Assembly (NCBI RefSeq): GCF_019649055.1 | Contig: NW_026570350.1 | Span: 1-64,000 of the forward strand | DNA: 64,000 nt | Reading direction: 5' to 3' | From: Paramacrobiotus metropolitanus | Lineage: Eukaryota > Tardigrada > Eutardigrada > Parachela > Macrobiotidae | Shown here: piece after piece, positions 17,794-56,033 of the stretch | Layout: every line of letters begins with the position of its first letter | How positions within the stretch are numbered: the first letter of the stretch is position 1 | The notes under the pieces: generated by a model | Told to the model about the DNA's origin: nothing | What the model saw: only the letters and a program-made list of their open reading frames with translations | The model's database searches: none | Translations under genes and position numbers: made by a program

Positions 17794-19226
17794 CTAAATA
17801 TAACGATAAACTGCATCACTCGGCCAACGTCCGAGCATGCGGATTTGCTCTGCAGGAATTCCGGCAATGGCTGCTGTGGAGGCTGCACCAATTCTTATCG
17901 AGTGAGAAGAATACGCATGGCCAAGACTTCGTTTTAATAATGAAGACAGATATTGACGAGTTAGAAATGATCCATCAGGGGAAAGGAATAGAGGAGACGT
18001 AGGAGTATGAATACGATCTCCAAAAGAAAGATAAGTACTACAGTTAAGCACTGGGCAGGTTTCGCTGTGCAAGCTAGGAATGAGAACGGTGACAGGAGTC
18101 AGCTGAGAAGATTTAGAGATTTTTAAAAGAATCCGGATACAGCGATCAGAAAAAAACTATGTCAGATCTTAGGAGAGTTGAACTGGAAACAGCTGCTTGC
18201 TTTGGTGCACAAAATTCGGAAACTCGAAGAAAACCATAGAAAGAAAGACATAAGGCAGCGCGAAACATAGCAATAGTGTGCGGAGGAACAGGCAAAGAAG
18301 AAATATAGCGCAATAGAAAAGTTAGCTTGTCCAGAGTAATTCCATCTCGTTTACGAATTGGTTGCCCACGGATTCTCATCCACCCGGAAAACATGAACTC
18401 CAAAAACCGCTTGTCCGGAACGGGATCGCTATATCCGTTTAGTAAGCGATGGGTCACTACTGCAGAAAAATAAACACGTGCAGTTGCACATGAAAGACCT
18501 TTCTGATATAAATATGCTAAAAAATTCCGAATGACATGAGAATCCGAGGGCATCGCGCAATACTTGAAAACCAAACAAAAATGGTTGAAGCAGCGTAATG
18601 CAACTCCGTAAGCTTGGCGGCTTGAAGGGGCTAAATGAGCGTGCAAGAGCGATGTAATAGTGCAATTAAACTGGGCATTATGCGGGTATCCTAAAACAAG
18701 AATAAATACAATTAGTGATAAACATAACGAATATTCAGCCGAAATAATACTTTGAACGTGACCGTTTAGAATCGGCAAGGCTGGGAAGAAAGGCAGCAAA
18801 ATCGGGCGTGAAAGCGTTAGGTTCAGGAGACGCTGTCGGATATACGTTAAAAAAGTTGACCATCTCGCGTCGAGATAAGGCATCGGCCGCTAAATTCTCG
18901 CAACCCGGAAGATAGTTTATTCGCAGATGAAAATTGTAGCGCGCTGCTTCGAAGTGAATTGAACGAATAAGATGCATGACACCAGGATGCTTGCAAGAAA
19001 ACTTTGTCCAAACCAGAGCTACTGCTTGGTTATCGGTGTAAAAGGTCAGCCGTTTTCCATGCCAGTGTACTCCCCAAATGGAACACGCAAAAAATATCGG
19101 TGCCATTTCGTACCAGGTTATGTGCGGTTTTAATTGGAGTACACTGTCCGGCCAGGCGATATAGAACCACTGAGAGCCAAATATACCACCACAACCAGAA
19201 CCACATGCGTCGGTAAAAATTTTCAT
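17794..19226 (-). mobile_element. DIRS-type (tyrosine recombinase) retrotransposon fossil
   Basis: The minus strand encodes an RNase H region of retroelement type (FTDACGSGCGG near its start, then YTDNQAVALVW and AADALSRREM), followed directly by a tyrosine recombinase (SSRQAYGVALRCFNHF near its start, a GFLRVSEF motif, and a SHSIRIGAASTAA motif near the end). RNase H followed by tyrosine recombinase defines the DIRS order. I see no methyltransferase region between them, which favours the Ngaro-like branch, though this is not certain. The copy is broken and incomplete: I see at least two breaks in what remains and no recognisable reverse transcriptase upstream. The domains remain easy to read, so it is probably of moderate age. 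Confidence 0.8.
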
Positions 19227-24249: not shown

Positions 24250-24261
24250 CCGCCAAGTCAT
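24250..24261. repeat. Candidate target-site duplication, left copy
   Basis: CCGCCAAGTCAT lies immediately before the left terminal inverted repeat. CCGCCAAGTTAT lies immediately after the right one at 34224-34235 (11 of 12 identical, direct orientation). Twelve bases is longer than the roughly 8 bp I would expect for this superfamily, so part of the match may be chance. Confidence 0.5.
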
Positions 24262-24282
24262 AGATTAACCCGTTTAGGGTAA
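24262..24282 (+). repeat. Left terminal inverted repeat of the KDZ element
   Basis: AGA followed by TTAACCCGTTTAGGGTAA. It pairs with 34201-34223 on the opposite strand. The core of 17 bases, TAACCCGTTTAGGGTAA, is perfect. Confidence 0.75.
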
Positions 24283-24396
24283 GAAGGGGGTTCCATCAAA
24301 GTTCCATTAGTTCCGGTAGTTCCATTGGTTCCATAAGTTCCGCTGCTGCAAATATTCGTACATCGTTCTTTGGCGAGAATAGTGTAACAAGGGTTA

Positions 24397-24438
24397 CGCT
24401 AATCGAACCCAAAGAAACTAGTGTGGGTTCGATTAGCG
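24397..24438. repeat. 14-bp perfect inverted repeat within the left subterminal region
   Basis: CGCTAATCGAACCC (24397-24410) and GGGTTCGATTAGCG (24425-24438) with a 14-base loop. It is not repeated in the right arm. It could form a hairpin or be a factor-binding site. Confidence 0.6.
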
Positions 24439-24479
24439 CCCTGTCTCAGTGCGCCCTCGTTTGGCACCTGTGGAACCTA

Positions 24480-25085
24480 TGGAACTGTATTGGAACTTAT
24501 TGGAACTAATGGAACTACTGTACATCGTTTAATTGCGCCCTGATGTGACACCTGTGAAACCTATGGAACTCTATTGGAACTTATTGGAAATGATGGAACT
24601 ACTGTATACCGTTTAATTGCGACATTTTGTGATGCCAGTGGAGCCTATGAAACTCTATTGGAACTTATTGGAACTGATGGAACTACTTTACACCGTTTAA
24701 TTGCGACCTGGTGTGACACCTGTGGAACCTATGGAACTCTATTGGAACTTATTGGAACTGATGGAACTACTGTACATCGTTTAATTGCGACCTGGTGTGA
24801 CACCTGTGGAACCTATGGAACTCTATTGGAACTTATTGGAACTATTGGAACTACTGTACATCGTTCAATTGCGACCTGGTGTGACACCAGTGGAACCTAT
24901 GGAACTCTATTGGAACTTATTAGAACTGTTGGAACTACTGTACATCGTTTAATTGCGACCTAACGTGACATCAGTGGAACCTATGGAACTCTATTGGAAC
25001 TTATTGGAACTGTTGGAACTACTGTACATCGTTTAATTGCTACCTGATGTGACACCAGTTAAGCCTGTGAAACTTTTTTGGAACC
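24480..25085. repeat. Left 84-bp subterminal tandem array
   Basis: The word TACAYCGTTTAATTGC recurs at 24521, 24605, 24689, 24773, 24857, 24941 and 25025, an exact 84-base period. Units are rich in GGAAC, as in GGAACCTATGGAACTCTATT. Because 84 is divisible by three, one frame stays open for 129 codons, but this is a repeat artefact. The same unit occurs inverted at 33570-34130. Arrays in this position are typical transposase-binding sites; that role is inferred. Confidence 0.9.
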
Positions 25086-25358
25086 CGTTGGAACCGAAGG
25101 AAACACTGCAAATATGCCTTCGGGCTCTTACGCTATCTTTACCTGTTGCTGTGGAAACCTGTTGAACTAAAAGTTACTTCAAAAATTGCTGTAGTTAGAA
25201 GTATTTTCGAAAATAATGTTAGTGAGGGGTACTATAGCGCACAGAAACTGAGGACAAGAGACATCGTTTGCGAATACTGTTCGTAATTTTATCACCTCAT
25301 TAGTAGCAGCAGTGTAGCAGTTTAAAATTTGTAGCAGTTTGATGCTTTGAAAAACTCC

Positions 25359-25820
25359 GTTAAGTGATCTAGTGACCCAGTTACCAGTACTGTCCTTTGC
25401 ATAGATCCCGTTAGGTAGGTGGGTGACCGAGCTACCAAAGCTATCCAGTGCACAGAGCCCGTTAGGTGAACGTATGACCAAACTGCAATATTACTGAGCA
25501 AAATAGAGCAGGGCCTGCTAAGTTCTTAATGGGTGACCTATCTAGCACCACTGTCCAGTCTTAGCGTCCTTTTAGTTTGTAATGTGATACTCTCGTGGGT
25601 GATTGGATTCGGATGGTTTTTCGCTAAGAAAATTTAACAAAAAATGATCTGTAAAGTCATAGTAATTGCGTTCGACTGCACGAAACCAAAACATCCATTT
25701 TTTTATAAAATTTTTGTTATCGGGCTCTTCAGATTTATCCGTTCTAAGTTAACAATCCGTAAACCGGCCAAGGAGTTTAGAACCCAAGAAACGCGGAGGC
25801 GAAGCCGAGGCTGTTTCTTG
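25359..25820. mobile_element. Non-autonomous repeat: 51-bp tandem units followed by a hairpin
   Basis: Units beginning GTTARGTRR recur at 25359, 25410 and 25461 (51-base period) and carry GTGACCGAGCTACCA and TATCCAGTGC words. At 25785-25820 follows a 36-base hairpin, CAAGAAACGCGGAGGCGAAG then CCGAGGCTGTTTCTTG. The same order (tandem units then hairpin) recurs at 57761-57953, and the hairpin recurs through 37-47 kb. The architecture resembles Helentron-associated (HINE) elements. It sits just 3' of the transposase stop and may supply its 3' UTR. Confidence 0.55.
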
Positions 25821-25847
25821 TAAGTAATATCATCATCTGCTGAATGT

Positions 25848-28376
25848 TTATGAGTCACAGCGCGTATTGGCTGCAACTTTTTCCAGATACAAGTTTCTGC
25901 GCTTAACGATCCTGTGTAGAAAGAAGAGTTGACGGTACTTAGTCATTTTGAACATAGCATGCTGGAATGCTCCCAGCCAACGGAATGTCTGCTCACAACT
26001 CTGTGTATTAGCACTGAGCAGGTTGGGATAGGCCGCCCGGATTTGGTCTGGATTGTACTTTGTGTGGCATTTATGGCCTTTGTGGTTGCCCAAGTGGAAG
26101 CCGTCGATTACTTTCGTCATCCCCTTGGTCCAAAGCTCGTCATATGGCGGTGGTAGCGAAAGTTTTTGAAGCGTGGCTTTCAGTCGCTCCAGATTGCACA
26201 TGTTATCATATGCCAAAAAAAGTTTTGGCCAGTCGCATGAGGGAACTGTTTGTAAGACCTGATACATCCAAGAAATCAGTATAAGGAATACCTGGGATGG
26301 AGACTCAGACCTGTAACAGGAAAGCAATGGTTCGGTACATGTGTCACTAACTGCTGAATCCCATATAAATGCGCACTTATATATAGGAGAGAACATGTCG
26401 ATGTGACCACCCGCTCGCACCACAAATATGTATCCTCGTGACCGAACTGGCTGCAGTTTCGGTTCACCTAGGTTTTTTGTGCAAACCAGTTCACTTGTTG
26501 AATCATTGTTTTCCGGCATTGAGATTTCTACTTCCACTGTTTCGCCGGGAAGCGTCACTTCATCAGCGCGAAAGTTTTTTAAAACCCGGTCAGACGCTGC
26601 AAGAATAATCGGATAAAAGTACGATTATTGCACCAATACAGAAAGTTTACCTTGAAGATGAAATGCGCTAGCTGCAGCATGTTGCAGCGTGACCTTTCTT
26701 TTGTTTGTTGGAATATTCGCCAGTTGTGCAGCAAGAGAATGTGGCCCGCAATACATTTCGCCACGTTTAGACAACGGTTCTTCTGGACAAATATTTGGAA
26801 AGTTTACCAGCTGAACGTTTGCAACGGTATTCTAAAAACGTTTAATAGATAATGGTTTTCTCTTTATTAGGTTATTCTACGCTCTAGTGGTCCTGTCATG
26901 ATCACTGTGACTTTATTGTATACATGCTGAGCAACACGATCTTTTGATTCCTCTTAAAAGTCACTTGCCTGCTGAACAAAAGCACAGTGCTGGAAGTGAG
27001 CTTTCCAGATGCCATCAACCGAGAACAACACTCCGCAACCTCTGGAAGCGCACGCCGGATGGCAGACATGAGGGTATAGACGCTCGCATCGAAGTTTGTC
27101 GAGTTCAGGAAAAGCTTGGTCAACGTCCTTGTCCGAAGAGAACCCGAAATAAAGCAAATTATTCTCCCGAACTTCATTTTCTGTTTCATAGCGGAAAAAC
27201 GCTTCGGACACGTTCTGTACATCAAATCCTACAAAGTAGATTAAAGTTTTCAAATGAAAAAAGCCAATGGTTTTGGGAAAAATTTACCGGCAGCTTTTCC
27301 GTATGTCTCGAGGTACGTTTCGCAGAACCCGTTGAAAGACGCTTTGCAATGCAATCTTGAAAAGGAAGTTGTAAAACAAAGTTGGCTTTACTTGGCAGTT
27401 GTGTAGCAAAGAAGAGAAAAGAGCACTAATTCCCGTGTAATCAGTTAATTTTAGTTTTGTTAAGATAAATATGATTTATTTATAAGGTATTTAATTAGAG
27501 CACTTACACGCTTTCTACTAAGAATTTGCATAACGTTCTAGACCAATAAGTTGTCTGGGTCACGCGCACATGCGTTCGTTCGTGCTCGTAAAAGCGGTAT
27601 TTGCCATCCTTTTTGGATTGAAACATGTCGTACTTGTATATACTACGACAGGTTGGACATCTATACGATAGGCGAACGAAAGATCGGCTCATTCCGTTAA
27701 TGTCGTGCAGTGTGCCCTGAAAAAATGCTTAGGGTACTGTATTTTTGCCGCAATATTCAGTTGTATTTCAAAGCAGTTAATAATAACTAACAAATACCGA
27801 TTGAAAATTAACGTAAAAGTGTGTGTACTCAAGACAGTAGACAGTTCACTGAACAAGGAATATAACTAACGAGTTGTTAGTAACTGTGACTACGTAAAGG
27901 TATATATTTACCCAAGCTGGCTTATTATGAAGACCGAGTTCCAAAGGTAGGCCTGTTTTAGAGCCCCTCTGGTACACGCAGCCTTCGGCGCACGTTTTCA
28001 CTGGAGGAGTAATTACAACGATACTCCTTGGATCCGATGGCGAAATCAAATCAAGGAGAGACGGCGCTTCGTTCATCACGTGGATATACATATCTCTAAG
28101 CCGATCAGGTGCCAGCTGTACACGGTGTGCAAGTTCCTACATGCAGTATATCATTTATTACAATGATATTGCAGTAGTTAATTAAAAGCAATAGCTAACT
28201 AATATTTCAAGAAATATGTAGATACATCACACATTTTGGCATACTTCCAAAAGAACCGTATCCATAATGTCCAGTGATCGGTTTGCGGTGCAAACGGTGC
28301 ACAACTTCAGGATTTCGTCCAGTGAATACTTGCTTAGGAATAATCTTAAAGAACCGTTCTGCTCTTCGTGTGTCAT
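25848..28376 (-). CDS. KDZ-family (Kyakuja-Dileera-Zisupton) DDE transposase
   Basis: Seven exons on the minus strand, in order: 28376-28245, 28136-27912, 27716-27508, 27355-27288, 27228-26969, 26831-26651, 26596-25848. Phases agree throughout and give 607 residues. The intron after 26969 uses a GC donor (CAG|GCAAGT); the others are GT-AG. Motifs in order: a Cys pair YRCPTC, LHCKASFNGFCETYLE, HVCHPACASRGCGVLFSVDG with candidate catalytic D283, then YCGPHSLAAQL, LAYDNMCNL with D489, a FHLGNHKGHKCHTKY zinc-type region, and NTQSCEQTFRWLGAFQHAMF with E560. This DNMC / FH-NH / EQTF-WL order is characteristic of KDZ transposases. The start at ATG 28376 is provisional. A good upstream coding exon at 28839-28728 (VISWPVDEFGARCAVKVQSA and on) probably belongs to it, but I could not fix the link. 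A divergent ATG at 29148 may begin it. Confidence 0.8.
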
Positions 28377-28597
28377 GATTTTCACTTTACCTACAGAAGC
28401 AGTTCATATCTATCAAATGCGCTTGTACGTTCTGATTAAACAGTAAATACCATTACTGTCAAAATAATTCTTCCATAACAAAACGTTCGAGACAGACTGC
28501 ATAAATTAAGGTCACGTAATTTTCCTGATTTTACCGATAACGCTCTTGAGGACTTATTAAACGTCGGGCAGAAACTGTTGAACTGCTCAAGTTATAC

Positions 28598-28650
28598 TGC
28601 TGTATAAATAGCTGCTCATGTGATACTGCTGTATAAATAGCACTAAAGGA
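28598..28650 (+). promoter_or_regulatory. Duplicated TATAAATAG within the divergent intergenic region
   Basis: CTGCTGTATAAATAGC occurs twice, 29 bases apart, with canonical TATAAATAG on the plus strand at 28603-28611 and 28632-28640. It lies between the two divergent genes of the transposon. On the plus strand it is about 540 bp upstream of the ATPase start codon, which would need a long or spliced leader. It could instead lie within an unresolved 5' exon of the transposase. Confidence 0.35.
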
Positions 28651-29177
28651 CACACAATATATTCCAGCAGCGACCTGTGCCACACTTTTGCCCACATAAA
28701 CAGCCCTATGTGGAGAATTGTGCTCACCTTTTAGTCAGTACTTCACCCAAAAGTCCAATCATCATTGGGGATGGGACGGCTGACTGCACTTTCACTGCAC
28801 AGCGAGCGCCAAACTCATCGACTGGCCATGAAATCACAGCTACAAATTAAAGGCAGTATGGCACCCATAGATCGTTTATTAGATTAGGTATACGTAATAC
28901 TATTACTGTAATCAATGCAGTACCAGCTTAGTCAACGTATAATTTGTCATTAAAGTGATTAAACGTACTTCTTGTACAAATAACCAGGCTGAAACACAGT
29001 AAACTGTATCCAACCCTAATTTTTGTGGGAAGGTGCCAATAAAAATGAGCTGTAAATTGTAATCATTTGGAAACAGCATGTTTTTTAACAAACGCATTCT
29101 AATTAAATAATTAAGAAATTTGCTGACCTTTTTAATTTGGCTTTGCATCCTGTGAACAGGCTTACAGATACTTTATA

Positions 29178-32100
29178 ATGTCTAACCAATCGGCTTCAGA
29201 TTCGTTTTGTGTAAGAAACTTATGCGTGTTTGTGCACAGAGTACTAATAACTGGAGGAATTAAGCCGATTATAGAGTAGCGCTTTATTACAGTTCACGGC
29301 AGCTGAATACCGGTTCAAAGAGAAGGATGGTCGTACCTATTATTTTAAAAAGAAGGAAAAACGAGCAGTGGACGACTGGATTATGGCATTTGTGTTAACG
29401 CCCATTGCAGAAGTGGAAGGAAAAACAACAGAATCTGGAACGCTATTTGAACTGCAGGACGACAGCTGCACGAGGTACAGATTTATTTATTATATTATAT
29501 GCACTATTGTATGGTATCTACGATTCTACGGTAGCTTAAACTCGCGCTATAACTTGCAACTCGGTTTACATACAAGAATAGCGCAGCTCGTACCGTAACC
29601 TCAGACGTTTAAAACTGATACTGTAACGATAACGGACCTTTGATACGCTTTAGACGATCAGGTACTTATATTTTGTGTATATCGGCCAATTCTGGTTTGC
29701 AGGAAGGTTTACATTCGTAGCAAGTCGTGGAACAATTTTAAAGATTTCTCCTCGGATCTGCATATCAAAGGCGGCTCGTCCGCGTTTTCCAACATGAGCA
29801 ACAAGGTTCTCGCCAAGTTAGGGGAGTGGTATCACCAACGGTATATTGAGTACGTAAAATATATTGAAAAACTACATAAGAAAGCTGTATATAAAAAAAC
29901 ACAACAGAAAGTATACTAATAATAATGGATCAAGTGCTTTTGTGATGTTATTATGTAGCTACACAGAAGTACTAGTATACATGTAAGCACTGGACGCAAT
30001 GAAGCACCCAATCCAACGCATATGTATGCATATTTTTTCATTTCTTACAGGAAATGCGAAGACAAAGAAATTCCGCTAAAGCGGCAAGCGGTTTCGCACC
30101 TGGGGCTGCAAGAAGACGGTGTTACTTTCGTTTTTGGTCCGGACATAATTTTCGTCCCTTTTGAGGGTGGAATGGTGTTAGCCGACACCGATAAATGTGC
30201 ATATGTGTGGACGCCTTTGTCATCCGTTTTAATTCCCCGCACTGTCGAGGTCTATCAGGGAAAAAAGAAGGCCAGACTGTTTGCCATTATAAGACAACAT
30301 TTGCCATTAGATGTCTACTACACCTTCGTACTAATGTGTGGTGAGTGAAATATTTATCACTGTTATAAAAAGATACTCGTATTATTGTAACCATATCCAC
30401 TGATACCGCGTCCACCTGAATTTACTTTAATTATTTGTATTGGTTGTCTAGAAAACAGAAATACTTTTAAATTGAATTTGTATAAGTTTGAATATTGGAT
30501 ATAATTTTTAGCACATTCTTGGATCAGCATGTTTTACGGAGTCCTGATCAGGCACTTCAAAGGTTTGCCAAGCTTGATCGTAGTCGGACTACCAGACACG
30601 TGGAAAACGCTCCTTCTGAATCTGAGCGTGTCAATTTTCGGGACAAATATGGAAGACATTTGCAATTTAGGGGAAATAACTGATTCCGCAGGCCTTGATC
30701 GCTGGACAAAATTGCACGTTCCTTTAATAATCCACGATAATCCATTTCCTAAGCTAATGCCACGTATATTTGGATGCGTGTACGAAAGAAAACTATATCT
30801 AAACTATCGCAACAAAAACAGCGGTGGTGTGCATCCTACTTCGTCTTGTGCGCTTACCATGAATTCCGATGGCCTGGATGATATCGCTGCCGCAACTAAA
30901 GACAAGTCAGTCTCAATAAATTTCGCTCTTTAAGCTCTGTGATCTACTCGATTGTGTCATCACCCACGAAAACCTGAGGTTTTTACAGAATGCGGACATT
31001 GAGTCGGGTAGCTATTTTGACCATGGATAACGAGATAACCGACATTGATAACACTGTTTTCACACTTCTGGAACAAGCGCAGCAACGTGCATCCAAAGAT
31101 GTTCGGAAACTGCTTCATTTTGGCGAGGAAGGATGCCGTGAACTGACTAATGCGGTTAATGACAAATACGAAATCATCAAACCAAAACTATTATCAGCGG
31201 GAATGGTTAGCTGCACTCACCGAATTGCAACCTTATACTCTATACTGTCGTCTGTTGGGGATATGGTACTATACAACGTTATTTCCATAGCGCTAGATGA
31301 CTTTGCATTCATTCTGTTTTTCTTAAATATTTCTGCAGATTGCCCGTAAAGTTGCTTGCGAGTACGACAAGGAAGAAGCTCTCCAATGCCTGCTACGGCA
31401 TATTTCAAAAGCCGCGCCATATCAAACTTTACCGCGCAATGGTTTGACCGCGCGTACAACGCTATCTTTACTTCCCGACCGAAGCAACTGCTTGGCCAAA
31501 GAAAGTTTTGCTCAACTGATAGAAGCACTACGCAAAACAACTCATGCCGAAAAGGTTAGTTGCTCAACGGTGTATTTCGTCATGTAAACTGCTCACAGAA
31601 TATGTGACACAAATTATCGAAAACGACACCAGGCTAAAAAATCTTATCTAAATACTACAAATGTGATTTAGTCTGTACGGTAAAGTAGTGTACTTACGCT
31701 TGCACTTTGTTTTATTTGGATGGCAATGCGGCCAATGCCTAATAAAACACCCTTTATGTACCACAGTACAACAAAATTAATTATCTAGTTCTCGAATTCA
31801 TTATACAAATTTGACGATATATTCTTTCAGATGAATACGTTTTTTAAGAACGTTCTCTCGGTGAAGTTTGAAGATATTGCGGAAGACGTGCTTTGTTTGG
31901 CTGTTCGGAAGGACTTGTTCCTTGATGCAACAAAAGAGGACCCGCTGCAACAAAATCGCTGGTGCATTGACCAGATTGCTTGGGCAGACAAGCAGCACCA
32001 AGTGAATCTGAAGGGTGTGCGGAGGCGTTGCTTAATTTTGCCACGCGAGCACTTTACTTCAGAGCAACTTGCAAAGATCGATGGTATCGTCGATGCTTTG

Positions 32101-33226
32101 CAAGTTTCCTTAGACGAAGCGCCCGAGGTGAGCTTGGCCGGTAATCCTGCTGCTGCAACATGTAAAGCGAGGCCACATTTGGATGGTAAGACCGGTGCAC
32201 ACTTAGGCCTTGTCCTGAATTCGAAGCGAATCTCGTTGCGATACAGCAGCTCCACCTTGGTGTCGAGTCTGCAGCGAATTTATCGCCTAAAGTTAGTCTG
32301 AACACCCAATCCACTGGAGGCTGATTTGGCCGTCAACCGTAATTAACTGCACTAATCAACAGCTCCGTAATATGACAGCTGCAGTACATTACATGACGCT
32401 ACCTGGCTACCATCATACTCGGTTGGCGGTTGCGCATGCTAGGAAAGGCAACCATCCACGGTTGACGGCTAAATAAAACTCCAGTGGAATGGGTGATAAG
32501 TCTAACTTTAAGCGATAAATTCGTTGCCGACTCAGCACCAATCCTCCTTGTACTTTTAATTGTGGATTTAGCTTCGCAAACGTCCAGCGGCATAGGAAAG
32601 CGCAAAAGCAGCGCCATGGAAGCTACTGAATCTGGAACGCAAAATGCTAACATGGATCAGTCACTTCCAGCTAACGACAGTGACTTCTCACCACTATCTA
32701 GCAGCACTCCAAAGAAAATGACTGCAAAAGGTAGAGTTTAACTAGAAACTATAAATCGAGCTTGTATTTAAGTTTTTTCGAAATTTTATAATGTTACGTT
32801 ACGCTGCAGATAGAGTCCGCACAGGAAACAAAATTCGATCATTTTCCGCTTCCGTTGTTTCTGAAGGTGAATCGTAATGACTTGCTAGTGAAGCAAACTG
32901 TACATAACTATAAACCTTCGACCTGAAACTCACGGAAGTTTAATGCAGATGATCCCGAAGCTACAAAACGTGCCGTTCATCATCGTTTCGGAAAACTCAG
33001 CCAAGACGATACCAATGTAAGCGAATCCAGCAAGATCATAAAATGCGGGAAGTGTCATGTGGCTCTTATTCCGGACAACAAAGACAAACCGTGGTTGCGC
33101 TGCACAGTCTGCCAACATGCTTTCCATCATATGTGCGCATCGTATGTGTCACCTCGTGTTACCCGATCAGGAAAACCACCACCAAAACAGAAACCTTGGA
33201 AATGTCCTTACTGTTCTAAGCGATAA
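29178..33226 (+). CDS. P-loop ATPase (SF3/AAA+-like) with C-terminal PHD finger, transposon-borne
   Basis: Eleven exons: 29178-29210, 29293-29474, 29703-29849, 30051-30340, 30512-30905, 30989-31265, 31339-31554, 31831-32185, 32572-32730, 32810-32866, 32949-33226. All borders are GT-AG, phases agree, and the product is 795 residues with no internal stop. Exon 6 could end at 31206 instead (20 residues shorter). ATPase core in exon 5: Walker A GLPDTWKT at 243-250 (Trp replaces the usual last Gly), Walker B PLIIHDNP at 288-295, and a strand ending in Asn, ALTMNSD at 331-337, like the sensor/motif C of SF3 and AAA+ helicases. A helical region follows (SRVAILTM, then HRIATLYSILSSVGDM). After a Ser-rich linker, a PHD finger has the complete set C736, C739, C755, C758, H763, C766, C789, C792. 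PHD fingers usually bind histone tails. Divergent from the transposase. Its exact family is unknown to me. Confidence 0.75.
32208..32540. mobile_element. Foldback MITE nested in intron 8 of the ATPase gene
   Basis: Arms 32259-32319 and 32479-32539 are about 61 bases each and complementary with about 85-90 percent identity by eye. An inner pair GGCCGTCAACCGT (328-340) and ACGGTTGACGGCT (458-470) extends the stem. The left shoulder, containing GAATTCGAAGCGAATCTCG at 32219, matches the terminal repeat of the MITE at 52588-52752. The insertion lies wholly within the intron 32186-32571, so the gene stays open. Confidence 0.65.
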
Positions 33227-33569
33227 AAACTAATTACTAATAATTATCGATTAATTATCGATTAATTATGAATTATCGATTTTTGCAGTTAGCTCTTCAT
33301 ATGCTTTGCTAAAATGCTCTAAATTATAGATTTGATTTTCTGCAGTGCTTCTGTATTTTCCCATTTTACCGAAATTAATTAGGCATAAAACGTCGTAAAA
33401 CCTTTCCTAATGATATCAGCTTGAGCATCACCGGTATTTTCTAGTAGCGTTAACTACTAAAATATTAGAAACATAATTAGAAACCTAGTAAAATATTGAT
33501 ATTATTTTCAATGAGTTCTAGCAGCATTCGATGCTTTCCCTTGGTACCACAAAAGGGCGCAGTGCTGTT

Positions 33570-34130
33570 AGTTTGAGAAGTTCTAACAGTTCCAACGGGT
33601 TCCATAGGTTCCAAATTCCAATGATGTTAAATCAGGTCGCAACTAAACGATATGCAGTAGTTCCAACAGTTCCAAAAAGTTCCAATAGAGTTCCATAGGT
33701 TCCACTGATGTCACGTTAGGTCGCAATTAAACGATGTACAGTAATTCCAACAGTTCCAGTAAGTTCCAATAGAGTTCCATAGGTTCCGCTGGTGTCACAT
33801 TAGGTTGCAATTAAACGATGTAAAGTAGTTCCAACAGTTCCAATAAGTTCCAATAGAGTTCCATAGGTTCCACTGATGTCACGTTAGGTCGCAATTAAAC
33901 GATGTACAGTAATTCCAACAGTTCAAGTAAGTTCCAATAGAGTTCCATAGGTTCCACTGGTGTCACATTAGGTTGCAATTAAACGATGTAAAGTAGTTCC
34001 ATCAGTTCCAATAAGTTCCAATAGAGTTCCATAGGTTCCACTGGTGTCACATCAGGTCGCAACTAAACGATATGCAGTAGTTCCAACAGTTCCAATAGAG
34101 TTCCATATGGTCCATTGGTATCACAGGCTG
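33570..34130. repeat. Right 84-bp subterminal tandem array
   Basis: ACGATRT words recur at 33647, 33731, 33815, 33899, 33983 and 34067, an exact 84-base period. Units are the complement of those at 24480-25085, as in GGTTCCACTGATGTCACGTT. Six copies are seen here and seven on the left. Adjacent copies are not identical, and alternate copies share variants (ATGTACAGTAATT versus ATGTAAAGTAGTT), which suggests two-unit duplications. Confidence 0.9.
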
Positions 34131-34200
34131 TTGCAGCGTCTGAATATTCGAAATCTTTGTTTTCGCCTTTAAGGGAAGGTACAGGGAAGCAATGTCTTAG

Positions 34201-34223
34201 TTACCCTAAACGGGTTAAACTCT
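34201..34223 (-). repeat. Right terminal inverted repeat of the KDZ element
   Basis: TTACCCTAAACGGGTTAA followed by ACTCT; the complement of 24262-24282 apart from a two-base difference near the tip. The candidate target duplicate CCGCCAAGTTAT follows at 34224. Confidence 0.75.
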
Positions 34224-34235
34224 CCGCCAAGTTAT

Positions 34236-40323: not shown

Positions 40324-41264
40324 TTAATTTTGAATATTACTTACCTGAAAATGTTGATATTGTGCTCGGACTGGATCTGTTGCTTTGTAAACGCAAGAAT
40401 AAATTCTCCCTAATGATAAGAGTTGGTGGCTTGTTGGATTATTTACGATTTCCAGGACTTTAGGAAGTGTTACGTTTTCAGTTATCGGATCTCCATGTGG
40501 GCTGCTTTTTTGGAACGCATTAACAGTGTTTACACACTGGCGACAGATTTTGAATTTGGATTCTGGAGTGGTAAATTCTTCAGGGAATAAACGATGCAGC
40601 ATATACTTGTTTTTGTCTTCATCCTTTGACTGATGTATACGATCGCCTTCTACAAAATTAGATCCGCAAATTCCGCAAGTGCCTTTGAAGACATTAATTG
40701 AACAGTTCTTGAATGCATGGAACAGGCACTCCAGAAGATGTCTTTGTGGCAACTTAATAAGTTTCCATGATTCATCTTCGATTTGATGGTAATCGGGTAG
40801 AATTTCGGTGCAAATATGAATCATATTTGCACCGAAATTGCACCGAAATTCTAAAGAAAGAAGTATGTTTCCATGGTTCTCGAACCCATGCTCGCACTTC
40901 TTTTTCGAAATCTGGGAAACGTTTTTCAATTCGGAATTTTTTCGTAAAAATTTTTGCGTAATGACTGTTGTTCGGCTGTTTCGACTGTTGTAGGCTTTGT
41001 TTCGTTGACCTTTTCAGTAACTCGGTTTGTGGTCCGTTTGTTCGTAGCTTGAAGCGTTTATCTTTTTCTTAACTGATTTCGTGGTGATGTTCGTTCTCTT
41101 GTTTTTTCGAGGATTTCATTTGAACTTGGTGGCTTGGCTTCGATTTTTTTCAAATCGGGATTCGTTACTTCATGTGTTTGCTTTGCACGTCTTGCTTTCC
41201 GTCGTTTTTCACTGGATATTCGTGCACTTCGTGTCTTTTTGCTGAGATTCGACTTTTTCCTCAT
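40324..41264 (-). pseudogene. Helitron-like N-terminal protein fragment
   Basis: Two adjacent minus-strand reading frames. 41264-41058 encodes a very basic N-terminus (MRKKSNLSKKTRSARISSEK and on). 40929-40324 encodes 201 residues with the Cys pairs CGICG and CRQCV, then VNAFQ and LLSLGRIYSCVYKATDPVRAQ. Basic N-terminus, two CxxC pairs, then an LxSLxRI block resembles the start of Helitron Rep/helicase polyproteins; this match is from memory and moderate at best. The frames are separated by a short segment with stops, and no Rep HUH or helicase motif follows, so it is a truncated, decayed copy. It sits between the two repeat arrays, which may be its non-autonomous relatives. Confidence 0.35.
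40801..40854. repeat. Perfect 19-bp inverted repeat with one-base loop
   Basis: AATTTCGGTGCAAATATGA (40801-40819), A, then its exact complement (40821-40839), followed by a second GCACCGAAATT. It lies in the coding stretch of the Helitron-like fragment. The structure is typical of template switching. Confidence 0.85.
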
Positions 41265-41559: not shown

Positions 41560-42200
41560 TATAAAATTCAGACGAAACTTAAGAAAATCCACTCGAAACT
41601 TAAGAAAATCCAAGAAACCTAAGAAATCTGAGAAACTCTAGTAAACAGATTGAATAGGCAAAAAACTATAAATGTAGGAAATCTGAGATAACCTAAGAAA
41701 ACCTAAGAAAACTAAGGAAAATTCTAAGGTAATATAAGAAACCTAAGAAACCTAAGAAAATCTAAGAAACCTAAGAAACCTAAGAAACTTAAGAAAACCC
41801 AAGAAACCTAAGAAACGTAAGAAAACCTAAGAAACCTAAGAAACTTAAGAAAACCTAAGAAACTTAAGAAATTGAGTTTTAAGAATTGTGAATTTAAGAA
41901 ATCTGAGATAACCTAAGAAAACCTAAGAAACCTAATAAACCTAAGAAACCTAAGAAACCTAAGAAACGTAAGAAAACCTAAGAAACCTAAGAAACTTAAG
42001 AAAACCTAAGAAACTTAAGAAATTGAGTTTTAAGAATTGTGAATTTAAGAAATCTGAGATAACCTAAGAAAACCCAAGAAACCTAATAAATCTAAGAAAC
42101 CTAAGAAATCTGAGATAACTTAAGAAAATCTAAGAAACCTAAGAAGCCAAAGTGGTCTAAAAATCTAAGAAAGCTAAGAAATCTAAGAAAACACGCCGGT
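41560..42200. repeat. CTAAGAAAC satellite, main block
   Basis: Dozens of tandem copies of a 9-base word, consensus CCTAAGAAA, with a higher-order repeat of about 168 bases (the block AAATTGAGTTTTAAGAATTG occurs at about 41868 and 42020). The same satellite appears at 46850-47010, inverted at 53830-54010, at 54355-54480 and at 58545-59060. Confidence 0.9.
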
Positions 42201-47099: not shown

Positions 47100-48050
47100 T
47101 GTAACGTGCCGATGCCGAAGGCCGCGGTTTGTCTCGGTTTTTCCGAACGGTCCGCGAACAGACAATGTATTTCTACGATGTATGTCTATGGGGGCCCATG
47201 GCAACAATTTGTTTTTTGGGGCTACTCCTTCCTTTTTGGGGCGTATCGATGGCGCAATAGCGTAAGAACATTCGCGCCGTTGAGACGAATTTAACGCACT
47301 TGGCCGCGTCGAAATCGGTTCAGCCGTTCGCCCAAACATTGGCTACATTATCAATCGTGTATACGTGGTTACGGATGTAGTTAACCAGTTTACGGAGGAC
47401 TACATCCGTAACCAATTTATCGGCGTCGGCTTTTGGTGATTAATAATTTTGTTTTTGTTCGCATCGAGGCCGCTGGCCGAGGCGTGTCATGTCATTTACG
47501 CACATGGGAAAAACTTGTCCATGTATGTCTATGGAGGCCCATGGTAACAACTTTCCTTTCCGGTCCCCTTTTTTTCCCCTCGAGGCGCATCGTCTCGGTA
47601 ATAGCGTAACATCCACCGCGTCGTTGCAGCGGTTCTGGCGCACTTGACCGCGTTGAAATCGGCCTACCCGTTGTCTCAAACATAGGTTTTTTTACCTTAT
47701 GCCGTCACGGTTGTTACGGATGTAGTTAACCAGTTTACGGAGGACTACATCCGTAACCAATTTATCGGCGTCGGCTTTTGGTGGTTAATTTTGTTTTTGT
47801 TCGCATCGAGGCCGCTGGCCGAGGCGTGTCGTGTCATTTACGCACATCGGAAACACATGGGAACAACTTGTCCATGTATGTCTATGGAAGCCCATGGTAA
47901 CAACTTTCCTTTCCGGTCCCATTTTTTCCCCTCCAGGCGCATCGTCTCGGTAATAGCGTAACATCCACCGCATCGTTGCAGCGGTTCTAGCGCACTTGAC
48001 CGCGTTGAAATCGGCCTACCCGTTCTCCCAAACATAGGTTACGGATGTAG
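47100..48050. mobile_element. Three related TIR modules in a row
   Basis: Modules containing the TGTATGTCTATGG(A/G)GGCCCA family word lie at about 47100-47380, 47400-47725 and 47745-48050. The last two are bounded by CTACATCCGTAACC at the left and the complement GGTTACGGATGTAG (or a near form) at the right. They are separated by an identical 19-base spacer, TTAACCAGTTTACGGAGGA, at 47381-47399 and 47726-47744. They therefore form a 345-base tandem repeat whose junctions are palindromic. Non-coding. Confidence 0.75.
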
Positions 48051-53489: not shown

Positions 53490-55243
53490 TCGGCAGGGTG
53501 TAAAAGGTGGAAGTGGCACCTGCCACTGGCAGTTGCCACCGGCAGTGGCATGTGGCATTTCGCGACTGGCAAGCGTTAAAACATGGCAATTTTTTAAAGT
53601 GCAGAAATAACTTAAATTTGCCTGCCACCAAGAAAAGTGAAAGTTAAAACGGAATCGACTTCTATGCATAGTTTTAAATTTCATAAAACGCCATTACACT
53701 AAAGATATAATTATGTGAAAGAAACAGTTCATCACATTTCTGTTAAATAATCTTTTTCTGCTCTGCGAACAGCCAATGCCCTATACTCGCCTACCAATGC
53801 AATGAGCGCTAAATATTTATGTAGCACAAAAGTTTCTTAAAATTTCGTAGGTTTCTTGCGTTATTCTTAGGTTATCTTAGGTTCTCAGATTTTTTAGTTA
53901 TTCTTAAGTTTCTTAGGTTATTCTTAGGTCTTTTAGTTTTCTTAGGTCATTCTTAGGCTTCTTAGGGTTTTTAGGTTATTCTTACGTTTCTTAGTTTTCT
54001 TAGCTTGGGTTATTTTTCTTATTGCCACGATTTTTGAAATCTTAAGAAAATTTAAATAACGCAAGTGACCTTAGTCACATTGGTGTCAGGGCGGGCTTAT
54101 GATTCAGCCCTTCTCTCATTGGTTGGTTTTGGGTTTTTTCCTGTCTGGGCATTTTCATGCGTTTTGATGGCTCTGTAAGGCAGCTGCGCTGCCTACAGAG
54201 ACCAGTTGGTTCTTGGCTTGCGCGCAAAGCGCGGTGTGTTCAGATTTCGGCATTAAAGCCTACATCCGGGTTTGTTTTGTTCCTCCGTCGTTGGACGATG
54301 CGCGCTTAGCCAGCGCCATCTGATATTGGCATAACCTAGAATTACAATACAACCAAAGAACCTAAGAAGTTTATTGTAAACCTAGGAAACCTACGAATGA
54401 CCTAACAACTTAAGGATAACCTAACAACCTAAGAAACTTAACAACATTAGAAACACAATGTAAACCGAAGAAACCTGAGAACCTATTTTATTTATGGTCA
54501 GTTTTAGTGGTTCGAGTGTTGCGTTCAGAGCCAGACTTTGAGGGCCAGAGTTTGAATTGTCAGAATCAGAGCTTGAGCGCGGGCCGTTTGTTTCTGTTTC
54601 GCCTGTCGACTTTTCGTACAACGACATATCAATGAATAACCCAACCGGCAGACCGACAGAATACTGACCGACAATTGGCGTTTCCACAATTTTGTTGCCC
54701 GATGTGTTCGAAAAACTGTTTTGTCGAACTACAGTTTGCTTTTCCGTTTGAGAAAACCAAATAAAACAAAAAAACCAAGAAGCAGACCGTTTAAAGTTAA
54801 AAAGTACAGAAAACTGACCGACCGTGCTCCAGAGTACATGCACGGAAAATCAAACACACAAAAAAACATAAAACTTGATAAAACATAAAAAAATACAAAA
54901 ACACGTTACAAAACCTAAGAAAACATAAAAAATGTAAGAAATTCAAAAATTTTAAGACATGTGTGTGCTACCCACAAATATATTTTGCGGCATTGTAGCG
55001 CACGTTGCGTTGGTAGGCGCGATACAGGTAGTAAGCTGGCCGCTGAGTGTAGAAAGATCAATAATATTATTATATAGAAATTAATTTTGTTTTATAAATG
55101 TTTTTTATGGAAGATTGATTTCTAGTTATTTCTGCATTTTCGAAAATTGCCATGTTTTCCCGCTTGCCAGTCGCAAAATGGCACATGCCATTGCCGGTGG
55201 CAACTGCCAGTGGCAGGTGCCACTGCCACCTTTTACACCCTGC
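53490..55243. mobile_element. 1.75-kb element with ~120-130-bp terminal inverted repeats
   Basis: The left arm from 53490 begins GGCAGGGTGTAAAAGGTGG. The right arm ending 55243 is its complement over about 120-130 bases with roughly ten differences, including CACCTGCCACTGGCAGTTGC and ACTGGCAAGCG. The interior holds inverted CTAAGAAA satellite (53830-54010), a second satellite patch (54355-54480) and a minus-strand ORF of 140 codons (54843-54421, STGETETNGPRSSSDSDNSN) of unknown function. Related GCCAGTGGCA-type words occur at 62040-62310. No clear target duplication. Superfamily unknown. Confidence 0.7.
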
Positions 55244-56033
55244 CTTTTAAGCTACTGCATAATCACGTGTCCCACAGGTAAGAAAGGGTTGACTAACGAA
55301 CAGTGTAACGCACCGTGTCGATTATCTTAGTGTAGACATACGTTCTGTGGAGTACAGAACCCAGTAAATAAAAAGCAGAAAATTACGCTAATTCCTGCAC
55401 GTATCCTTTTCCGATTAACTTCAAGGAAATGGCAATAGGTACGCCCTTTCACTCCCGTTATCTAGAGGCATCCCCTTTCGCACCCAATTAGACTAGAGGA
55501 GCCCTTTTTCGATTAATTAATCCCTGCATCCCGTCGCGTGCGAAACCAATAGGCATCCATTACTGTCCCTTACTACGTATTAAGGTCGAATTTTCTTGAC
55601 CTTAGAGAAGTTTCCGGTTGTGCAGCGACAGTTGACTGGCACAACTGCCCGAATTGAAGAATGCGGGCTAATGGTCTGCCCTTGAAATTGCGGAAGGACA
55701 AATGCCAGAGAACGCAATATTCACCAAAGCTCCCCTTCAATGTGCCTGGCTGGCAGAAAAACTGAAATCTTGTTGAGATGCCCAAAACGCACCGAAAACA
55801 GACCAGCGAACGGGCAAACCGCCCAGAAGAGCAATATTGTCGTGCGCGCGGAAGATGCCGTGCGCATTCGATCTCTGCTGGCCGATCTTCCAAACCGACC
55901 CATTGGGAACCAAGAAAACTGTCCAAAAAATCTTCATCAGTCCTCTGGGGAAAAAATTGAAAAATAGGTGCCTACAGCCCGCGGAAAAAAAACGAGGAAC
56001 GAGAATTATCGAATAAAAAAGGGTGCCTACATA
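55244..56033. other. Intergenic with overlapping ORFs, unidentified
   Basis: Open frames on both strands at 55573-55967 overlap and show no recognised motif. It resembles a decayed transposon interior by composition only. Confidence 0.25.

Follow-up and report, generated by a model that had tools for sequence, protein, structure and literature searches.

Do the two genes and the long inverted arrays found together in ~10 kb of tardigrade DNA make up one mobile element, and if so what does the gene that is not a transposase do? The locus lies on contig NW_026570350.1 of Paramacrobiotus metropolitanus, of which positions 1–64,000 were analysed (hereafter the window, to which all coordinates refer). 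An initial annotation had proposed a whole DNA transposon of the KDZ (Kyakuja-Dileera-Zisupton) superfamily, pairing a transposase with a divergent P-loop ATPase/PHD gene. Known KDZ elements consist of a transposase and optional cargo, whereas here the second gene is closely tied to the transposase.

THE ELEMENT AND ITS COPIES

The contig carries a complete DNA transposon at window positions 24259–34224 (9966 bp), a single mobile unit of the KDZ superfamily, as its target-site duplications (TSDs), its termini and five full-length copies establish. The endpoints first proposed, 24262 and 34223, belong to real termini, but the true span is slightly wider. The left terminus (24259–24282, + strand) reads CATAGA followed by TTAACCCGTTTAGGGTAA, a terminal inverted repeat (TIR) recognised by its matches across the genome; the right terminus (34201–34224, − strand), GAGAGT followed by TTAACCCGTTTAGGGTAA when read inwards, is an imperfect inverted copy of it. 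Outside them, the flanking direct repeat that had been scored as 11 of 12 is in fact a perfect 8-bp TSD, CGCCAAGT, at 24251–24258 and 34225–34232. TSDs of 8 bp are a feature of Zisupton and Dileera, and the 8/8 match in the window copy is consistent with KDZ membership; such a TSD and a CxC5 domain (see below) are by themselves insufficient to choose among Kyakuja, Dileera and Zisupton. Since both genes are open and the TSD is perfect, the activity of the element may be recent. A search for a paralogous empty site for this insertion returned only the window's own two flanks, and Rfam gave 0 matches within the window.

Searching the genome with the ends, as the initial annotation had advised, revealed further copies. 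The 24-base terminus, with up to three mismatches, occurs at 33 sites in 170 Mb, against 0 for a reversed control pattern, and both ends are present in 16 of 21 candidate regions fetched. Besides the window copy there are four other full-length copies, whose ends are 98–99% identical to those in the window; all five hold both genes inside the same ends, and the window copy is the only one open in both. Perfect 8/8 TSDs flank six of the 16 two-ended elements, including four of the five full-length copies. A perfect 8-bp TSD is found in an array-rich 13.9-kb element. Ten short two-ended relatives without the genes share ends with the window element. Nine of these (all but C149) were compared for arrays, which matched in eight, the exception being the 153-bp one. 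Among more divergent relatives, the element at C50 and C4 exceeds 20 kb, measured without reaching its right end, and a search with its left terminus found nothing beyond its two left ends. No left end was identified at C74 when one was looked for, and C32 has a single clear end and a partial transposase.

THE TRANSPOSASE GENE

Both genes, which the initial annotation had called open, proved so once spliced, at 585 and 795 amino acids (aa); their introns are standard except for one GC-AG donor. Gene 1 (28376–25848, − strand, 585 aa) has eight exons: 28376–28245, 28136–27912, 27716–27508, 27355–27288, 27228–26969, 26831–26651, 26596–26377 and 26310–25848. Its start at MTHEEQ is based on frame arguments only. 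A first model that retained a 66-bp in-frame intron was dropped after the sea-star comparison, and a possible upstream exon at 28728–28839 was rejected for want of an in-frame join.

The identity of gene 1 as a KDZ transposase is supported by a CxC5 match (PF18718; E = 6.4e-9, 36.4 bits, cut-off 26.9) and by a marginal KDZ-domain match (PF18758) in the C-terminal 144 aa, at 27.1 bits just over the Pfam cut-off of 26.6 (E = 4.1e-6). PF18758 falls slightly under that cut-off (26.2 bits) in a single-exon ORF of the gene, is absent from the matches listed for the whole protein, and matches at E ≤ 1 in four of nine fragments, that of the window included. A protein search with gene 1 found two relatives, Acanthaster planci LOC110985613 and Patiria miniata LOC119740011, one 40% identical over 33% of gene 1 and the other 32% identical over 76%. 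Both share its CxC5 and D-D-E motifs: D283 (of DGIWK), D467 (of YDNMC) and E538 (of EQTF) are invariant among the three proteins, and from knowledge of the family we take them to be the catalytic residues.

THE PARTNER GENE

Gene 2 (29178–33226, + strand) encodes a partner protein of 795 aa in a splicing model of 11 exons: 29178–29210, 29293–29474, 29703–29849, 30051–30340, 30512–30905, 30989–31265, 31339–31554, 31831–32185, 32572–32730, 32810–32866 and 32949–33226. The NCBI model LOC129598826 (754 aa) begins at an internal Met and agrees at every residue with the C-terminal 754 aa of ours. By eye, intron 8 (32186–32571) contains a palindromic (inverted-repeat) stretch.

We think it somewhat more probable than its alternatives together that gene 2 encodes an ATP-binding regulator of transposition, co-inherited with the transposase in a KDZ element whose arrays serve as binding sites. 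The ATP-binding part of this reading comes from exon 5 (30512–30905), which carries a P-loop motif (GLPDTWKT), the stretch VPLIIHDN and a T-x-N motif. Across 21 partner fragments (20 fetched loci and the window), the motif G-x4-[GW]-K-[ST] is present in 19 and a Walker-B-like H-D also in 19; the window copy has W in place of the motif's second glycine. GK[ST] is found in 14 fragments and WK[ST] in five (window, C41, C74, C110 and C301). C301 also lacks the D of H-D, C186 has a stop within the P-loop and C63 is cut short there. Because of the W in those five, the missing D and the C186 stop, ATP hydrolysis by these proteins is uncertain.

A profile built from ten partner fragments (the window and nine of the 20 fetched loci) matches solved P-loop proteins in PDB across ~30 residues, the matches including midasin at 1.2e-5, with no single stretch passing, and adenylate kinase 8 at 0.003. 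These matches are confined to the P-loop surroundings and are of mixed kinds, GTPases and one kinase among them, so they do not establish AAA membership. In Pfam and NCBIfam no family accounts for gene 2 and no ATPase family exceeds its cut-off; 'P-loop ATPase' is a motif-level call. Protein searches, each scoring ~8,000 candidates, revealed no gene 2 homologue outside P. metropolitanus. Structure predictions reached a pLDDT of just 31 for the whole protein (three sequences) and 33 for the P-loop exon alone, too low to yield a model.

The order of the motifs (P-loop, h-x-x-h-H-D, T-x-N) resembles SF3 motifs, and we liken them to SF3-type motifs A, B and C. Gene 2 might then be a replication or unwinding protein, an SF3/AAA-like helicase, in an element that moves in part replicatively. 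This we regard as improbable: of four partner fragments scanned, one has a Pfam RNA_helicase match, at an E of just 0.22; DUF927 (PF06048), tried as the gene 2 family and dropped, gives 0 genome matches exon by exon and is unlisted for the spliced protein and for four fragments; and cut-and-paste movement fits the perfect 8-bp TSDs and clean ends.

The last exon (32949–33226) encodes a PHD-like C4HC3 zinc finger whose eight ligands, assigned by eye, are all present. Against PF00628, with a cut-off of 24 bits, it remains below threshold, at 21.3 bits for the exon and 17.6 for the whole protein; C1_1 scores about equally. Such a finger raises the alternative that the protein of gene 2 counters silencing or acts on chromatin, using its PHD finger and an ATPase motor to evade host repression or reach open chromatin, and stands outside the cut-and-paste chemistry. 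Fungal KDZ elements offer a parallel: in the available text of PMC12730594 they captured, on several occasions, a TET/JBP gene whose presumed role is to oppose silencing by methylation, and so, like the window element, carry a second, non-transposase gene. We nevertheless consider this rather unlikely. Of four relatives examined, C32 has the finger, whereas it is undetected in the divergent C74, C50 and C4, which retain the P-loop part, so that what is conserved there is the ATPase-like core and not the reader (a fifth locus, C129, has a weak fragment of the finger). Moreover, as far as that source describes it, the TET/JBP dioxygenase was captured repeatedly, unlike the ATPase-like protein here, which is co-inherited with the transposase across lineages.

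PAIRING OF THE TWO GENES

Homologues of the two genes are adjacent elsewhere in this genome. For 24 of 35 partner loci a KDZ locus is found no more than 15 kb away, head to head in 22 cases (five being the full-length copies) and in other orientations in two, against ~0.34 expected under uniform placement. That expectation is too low, since transposons tend to cluster and some pairs are copies of others; the 22 are therefore not independent. In this count each locus is represented by at least one match, extra exon matches are omitted and same-strand matches within 6 kb are merged; the numbers of loci are lower bounds, from the best candidates scored. Thus neither observation that the initial annotation had said would make the arrangement fortuitous, ends without a second copy and genes that never occur together, holds in this genome. 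That unrelated repeats became nested or neighbouring by accident is hardly credible, given that five copies enclose both genes between the same ends, and given the TSDs and the adjacency count.

The pairing is incomplete. For 11 of the 35 partner loci there is no KDZ locus at up to 15 kb, and of 55 KDZ loci, 33 are never the closest KDZ to a partner locus over that distance; some unpaired loci may be fragments or lie at contig ends. At C57 and C43, 8.0 and 7.7 kb of upstream sequence, respectively, showed no trace of a partner, and the partner is therefore dispensable in some copies.

The two genes have diverged in parallel. Over 13 pairs their distances are correlated with a Mantel r of 0.955, with 0 of 20,000 permutations as high; this set takes one representative for the five copies of the window family, omits C32, C121, C335, C53 and C9:1.09M (transposase stretch not fetched or incomplete) and includes a C4 transposase fragment partly out of frame. 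Without near-identical copies, and without C4, r is 0.908 for seven pairs (a value that five of the 5040 possible permutations reach). At transposase distances above 0.5, the 13 fall into three groups: window/C74, C50/C4/C420 and the remainder. In pairwise comparisons of the window copy with the four other full-length copies, dN/dS is 0.22–0.35 for gene 1 and 0.16–0.23 for gene 2 (Fisher p from 0.026 down to 4.4e-7, in four comparisons that have common ancestry). Both genes are under purifying selection, and as a divergently transcribed pair they have been inherited jointly through several old KDZ lineages here.

Gene capture does occur in other DNA transposons, and the 11 partner loci without a nearby KDZ could be read in the same way, with gene 2 as cargo that the element picked up from its host by accident. 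We hold this to be very unlikely in view of the constant order and orientation at 22 loci, the co-divergence across old lineages and the purifying selection. With its constant orientation, parallel divergence and selection of its own, gene 2 looks like a part of the machinery, which suggests that the two proteins work as a team.

TERMINAL ARRAYS AND PROPOSED MECHANISM

Tandem Repeats Finder confirmed inverted arrays of 84-bp units at both ends, with 7.8 copies on the left (24450–25102, + strand) and 6.3 on the right (33579–34105, − strand). The left units carry TGGAAC hexamers mostly 9–11 bp apart. TGGAAC occurs 32 times in the left 1.1 kb, with four more in the opposite orientation; the right 1.1 kb, read inwards, has 27, compared with five on both strands of the 8 kb of interior. 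In the divergent element C74 the same gene pair is flanked by inverted arrays of 31/51-bp units, and the left array of the C50/C4 elements is built of a different 84-bp unit; the stretches compared gave no blastn match to the window arrays at E ≤ 1. Arrays thus appear to be a feature of this kind of element, with lineage-specific sequence and similar layout among the lineages examined.

Under the favoured reading, of an ATP-binding regulator co-inherited with the transposase, gene 1 would encode the DDE enzyme responsible for cleaving the ends and inserting them into a target with an 8-bp stagger. The inverted TGGAAC arrays are putative binding sites for the gene 1 protein, the gene 2 protein or both, and their occupation would bring both ends together in a synaptic complex. 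The gene 2 protein would bind ATP and act with the transposase, regulating transpososome assembly or target choice, and would thereby work like proteins of the TnsC/MuB type and not belong to them; in the window lineage its PHD-like finger may add a contact with chromatin.

COMPARISON WITH KNOWN SYSTEMS

Bacterial Tn7 and Mu pair a DDE transposase with an ATPase (TnsB/TnsC, MuA/MuB) acting on multiple end-binding sites, much as is proposed here. The best sequence hint of kinship between gene 2 and those ATPases is a non-significant Pfam TniB match (E = 0.013) in one of four partner fragments scanned. If gene 2 is an ATPase acting in transposition, the element would be an animal counterpart to these bacterial two-component systems. 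A bolder version, which we offer tentatively and think somewhat doubtful, is that this is an animal cut-and-paste DDE transposon dependent on a dedicated ATPase partner and on lineage-specific inverted-array platforms, in the manner of TnsB/TnsC or MuA/MuB, and kept so through old KDZ lineages.

Zisupton, Dileera and Kyakuja elements, as described in the available parts of PMC12810828 and PMC12730594, resemble the window element in a KDZ transposase with a CxC-type cysteine cluster, 8-bp TSDs, TIRs and a length of ~10 kb; KDZ1 of Cryptococcus is ~11 kb with 241-bp TIRs and 8-bp TSDs. The window element differs in its short TIR core beside long inverted arrays, in having CxC5 and not CxC1, and in its conserved divergent P-loop partner, of which those texts make no mention. 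Ectocarpus and Chlamydomonas have giant KDZ elements, some above 30 kb, and giant transposon families there often carry additional genes, with no conserved ATPase partner described for the giants in the text available (PMC12477816). Nor is any pairing of a KDZ transposase with a P-loop or ATPase gene described in the available portions of PMC11071193 and the three papers above, or found in the portions available of the CC-licensed PMC literature, the scope of our search (subscription papers and Repbase lying outside it). The window element thus represents a two-gene KDZ architecture of old standing, its second gene ATPase-like, which that literature, as far as it was available, was not found to describe.

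In En/Spm, subterminal repeat arrays are bound by TnpA, a second protein of the element. The window element is similar in its many short repeats near both ends, predicted to act as binding platforms, and in its two proteins, but En/Spm belongs to another superfamily, with a different TSD size and different proteins. Inverted arrays of varying sequence and similar layout in the lineages examined form a natural series in which the co-evolution of a transposase with its predicted binding sites could be followed.

Element boundaries and genomic copies

The KDZ (Kyakuja-Dileera-Zisupton) transposon in the window is a mobile unit of 9966 bp with an 8-bp target-site duplication (TSD). Its boundaries, 24259 and 34224, were set by aligning the ends of copies. 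One terminus reads CATAGA and the other GAGAGT, each followed by the common TTAACCCGTTTAGGGTAA. Comparison of copy ends also resolved the flanking direct repeat proposed in the initial annotation as a perfect 8-bp TSD, CGCCAAGT, lying just beyond the termini.

The host is a eukaryote with an assembly of 170 Mb in 533 contigs (C numbers below denote these contigs and the elements or loci on them). The proposal of a single element predicted further ends and copies of similar length, and a genome-wide search found both: the terminus pattern, allowing up to three mismatches, occurs at 33 sites versus 0 for the reversed pattern, and four more full-length copies were recovered. Three of the four, on C138 (10854 bp), C137 (9185 bp) and C58 (9630 bp), have their own perfect 8-bp TSDs, which differ in sequence between copies; the fourth, on C103 (11007 bp), has none. 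Among 21 regions taken from end searches, 16 contain both ends, six of these with TSDs matching at 8/8 positions. The 16 comprise the five full-length elements, ten short ones (661–1381 bp, plus one of 153 bp among them) and one of 13.9 kb, C35:673303-687172. This last has the termini of the window element and a perfect 8-bp TSD; 87-bp repeats occupy most of the 10 kb scanned, GTTCCA occurs 658 times within the 14.5 kb fetched, and no genome search with either element protein matched it. The short elements C194:149228-149936 and C149:34106-34129 have left flanks identical over 25 bases, so copies need not all be separate insertions; this pair is perhaps a segmental duplication. At another short relative, C1:3602291-3603672, the flanking 8-mers TGTTATGG and CCATAACT are approximately reverse complements rather than direct repeats.

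The two genes

Splicing upheld the description of both genes as multi-exon and open. Gene 1, the transposase, joins minus-strand exons into 585 codons; gene 2, its divergent partner, joins 11 plus-strand exons to encode 795 aa, of which the last 754 are identical to the NCBI model LOC129598826 (P. metropolitanus).

The gene 1 protein has a CxC5 match exceeding the Pfam cut-off. Its C-terminal part matches the KDZ domain barely above cut-off, and whole-protein scans list CxC5 without KDZ, so that this domain call is marginal by score. Protein search found two homologues, both sea-star proteins also bearing CxC5, and the residues D (DGIWK), D (YDNMC) and E (EQTF) are invariant between them and gene 1.

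The gene 2 protein runs from a conserved LGLQ-D...FGPD stretch through a P-loop region to a terminal, PHD-like C4HC3 finger. No homologue outside P. metropolitanus was found among the ∼8,000 candidates scored per search; within the species a first search found three proteins and a profile search a fourth. No curated family covers the core. Across 21 partner fragments, the window's and those of 20 fetched loci, G-x4-[GW]-K-[ST] is found in 19, as is an H-D pair, which is missing from C301 and C186. The C63 fragment is truncated and C186 has a stop inside the P-loop; tryptophan replaces the second P-loop glycine in the window, C74, C41, C110 and C301. A profile of ten fragments resembles P-loop proteins of mixed kinds, solely around the P-loop motif.

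Both genes are open in just one of the five full-length copies, that of the window. In the C58 copy gene 2 is open save for one altered splice site, and gene 1 has a one-base length change near the C-terminus; the C138, C137 and C103 copies have several frame changes each, of which the single-base ones could in part be assembly errors. Comparing the window copy with each of the other four gave dN/dS values of 0.22–0.35 (gene 1) and 0.16–0.23 (gene 2), with Fisher p ranging from 0.026 down to 4.4e-7 over four non-independent comparisons. Compared among themselves, the four younger copies gave 0.58–2.86, with two values undefined (first gene 1 model, few changes). Purifying selection on both genes therefore probably predates the making of these copies.

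Association of the genes

The two genes are co-inherited. Loci were collected by searching the genome with each protein, merging hits and scoring the best candidates, so counts are minima: at least 35 partner loci and at least 55 KDZ loci. That homologues of the two should be adjacent elsewhere was borne out, since 24 of the 35 partner loci have a KDZ locus within 15 kb, 22 of them head-to-head (five being the full-length copies). Uniform placement, a model that neglects transposon clustering, predicts ∼0.34 adjacencies. Amino-acid distances for gene 1 and gene 2 correlate across 13 paired loci (r = 0.955; 0 of 20,000 permutations as high), and also without near-identical copies (seven loci, r = 0.908; 5 of all 5040 permutations as high). 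The window transposase lies at a distance of 0.33 from that of C74 and of 0.53–0.61 from the rest, which indicates that the pairing is old.

Counting against strict dependence, 33 of the 55 KDZ loci have no partner within 15 kb for which they are the closest KDZ. No partner was found in the 8.0 and 7.7 kb fetched upstream of the C57 and C43 KDZ loci, respectively, and the C129 KDZ locus has a PHD-like fragment without the P-loop part. This fragment, at positions 1309-1560 of C129:166308-172300, resembles the final part of gene 2, at E 2e-4.

Terminal arrays

Arrays of 84-bp units are present at both ends of the window element and mutually inverted, as first described. The units are composed of TGGAAC hexamers spaced by 9–11 bp (22 of 29 listed spacings in the left array, 20 of 25 in the right). 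At this spacing a unit would be close to eight helical turns and would place the TGGAAC sites along a single face of the helix. Element copies differ in their number of repeats (4–7 marker matches at the left end, 5–11 at the right), as expected for tandem arrays. The arrays were matched in eight of nine short elements compared with the window (C149 left out).

Terminal arrays occur in more than one lineage. The C74 element has the head-to-head pair of the window and inverted arrays of 31/51-bp units on both sides, and past the right array there is a sequence that ends in a CATAGA-like motif. The C50 and C4 elements (C50:399475 onwards, C4:2406206 downwards), 98–99% alike over at least 20 kb and longer than 20 kb, share this gene arrangement. 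They begin at CTAGATAGGGCACGATTTGTTTAGGG (cf. CATAGATTAACCCGTTTAGGG), with at least 24 copies at the left end of an 84-bp unit other than the window's. No blastn match at E<=1 was found between the array stretches compared, those of C74 and C50/C4 against the window's.

Proposed mechanism and relation to known elements

We propose that the transposase would carry out cut-and-paste, while the arrays, as many copies of a putative binding site, would let the two ends come together. The partner, through predicted ATP binding, may build, regulate or direct the end complex, a role judged not from homology but from the way the element combines a DDE enzyme with a P-loop partner and multiple sites at its ends. 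The main rival is an anti-silencing role for gene 2, suggested by the PHD-like finger at its C-terminus and by the TET/JBP genes that a portion of PMC12730594 describes on fungal KDZ elements; however, of four relatives examined only C32 has the finger, and all four keep the P-loop part. A partner acting on the end complex is the reading we prefer.

KDZ elements with 8-bp TSDs, lengths of ∼10–30 kb and in some cases extra genes are known from passages of PMC12810828, PMC12477816 and PMC12730594, and an excerpt of PMC11071193 lists Zisupton in the repeat libraries of two other tardigrades. The parts of the openly licensed PMC literature that our search returned contain no KDZ element in which a conserved P-loop gene accompanies the transposase; the element, of a known type in its TSD, size and carriage of extra genes, is therefore probably new in this pairing.

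Other features of the window

Arrays of a GAAACCTAA-type repeat at 41678-42190 and 53844-54021, mutually inverted and ∼12 kb apart, possibly mark another large element with inverted arrays. Two open frames on the minus strand have weak domain matches that fall below cut-off, each at E 0.004: one of 247 aa (18146-18889) matches a phage-integrase SAM-like domain and is perhaps part of a tyrosine-recombinase element, and one of 229 aa (40324-41013) matches zf-AD. The window also contains a 121-bp inverted repeat, 93% complementary, at 53492-53612 and 55124-55244 with 1.5 kb between, and 1.9 tandem copies, 92% alike, of a 352-bp unit at 47368-48040.
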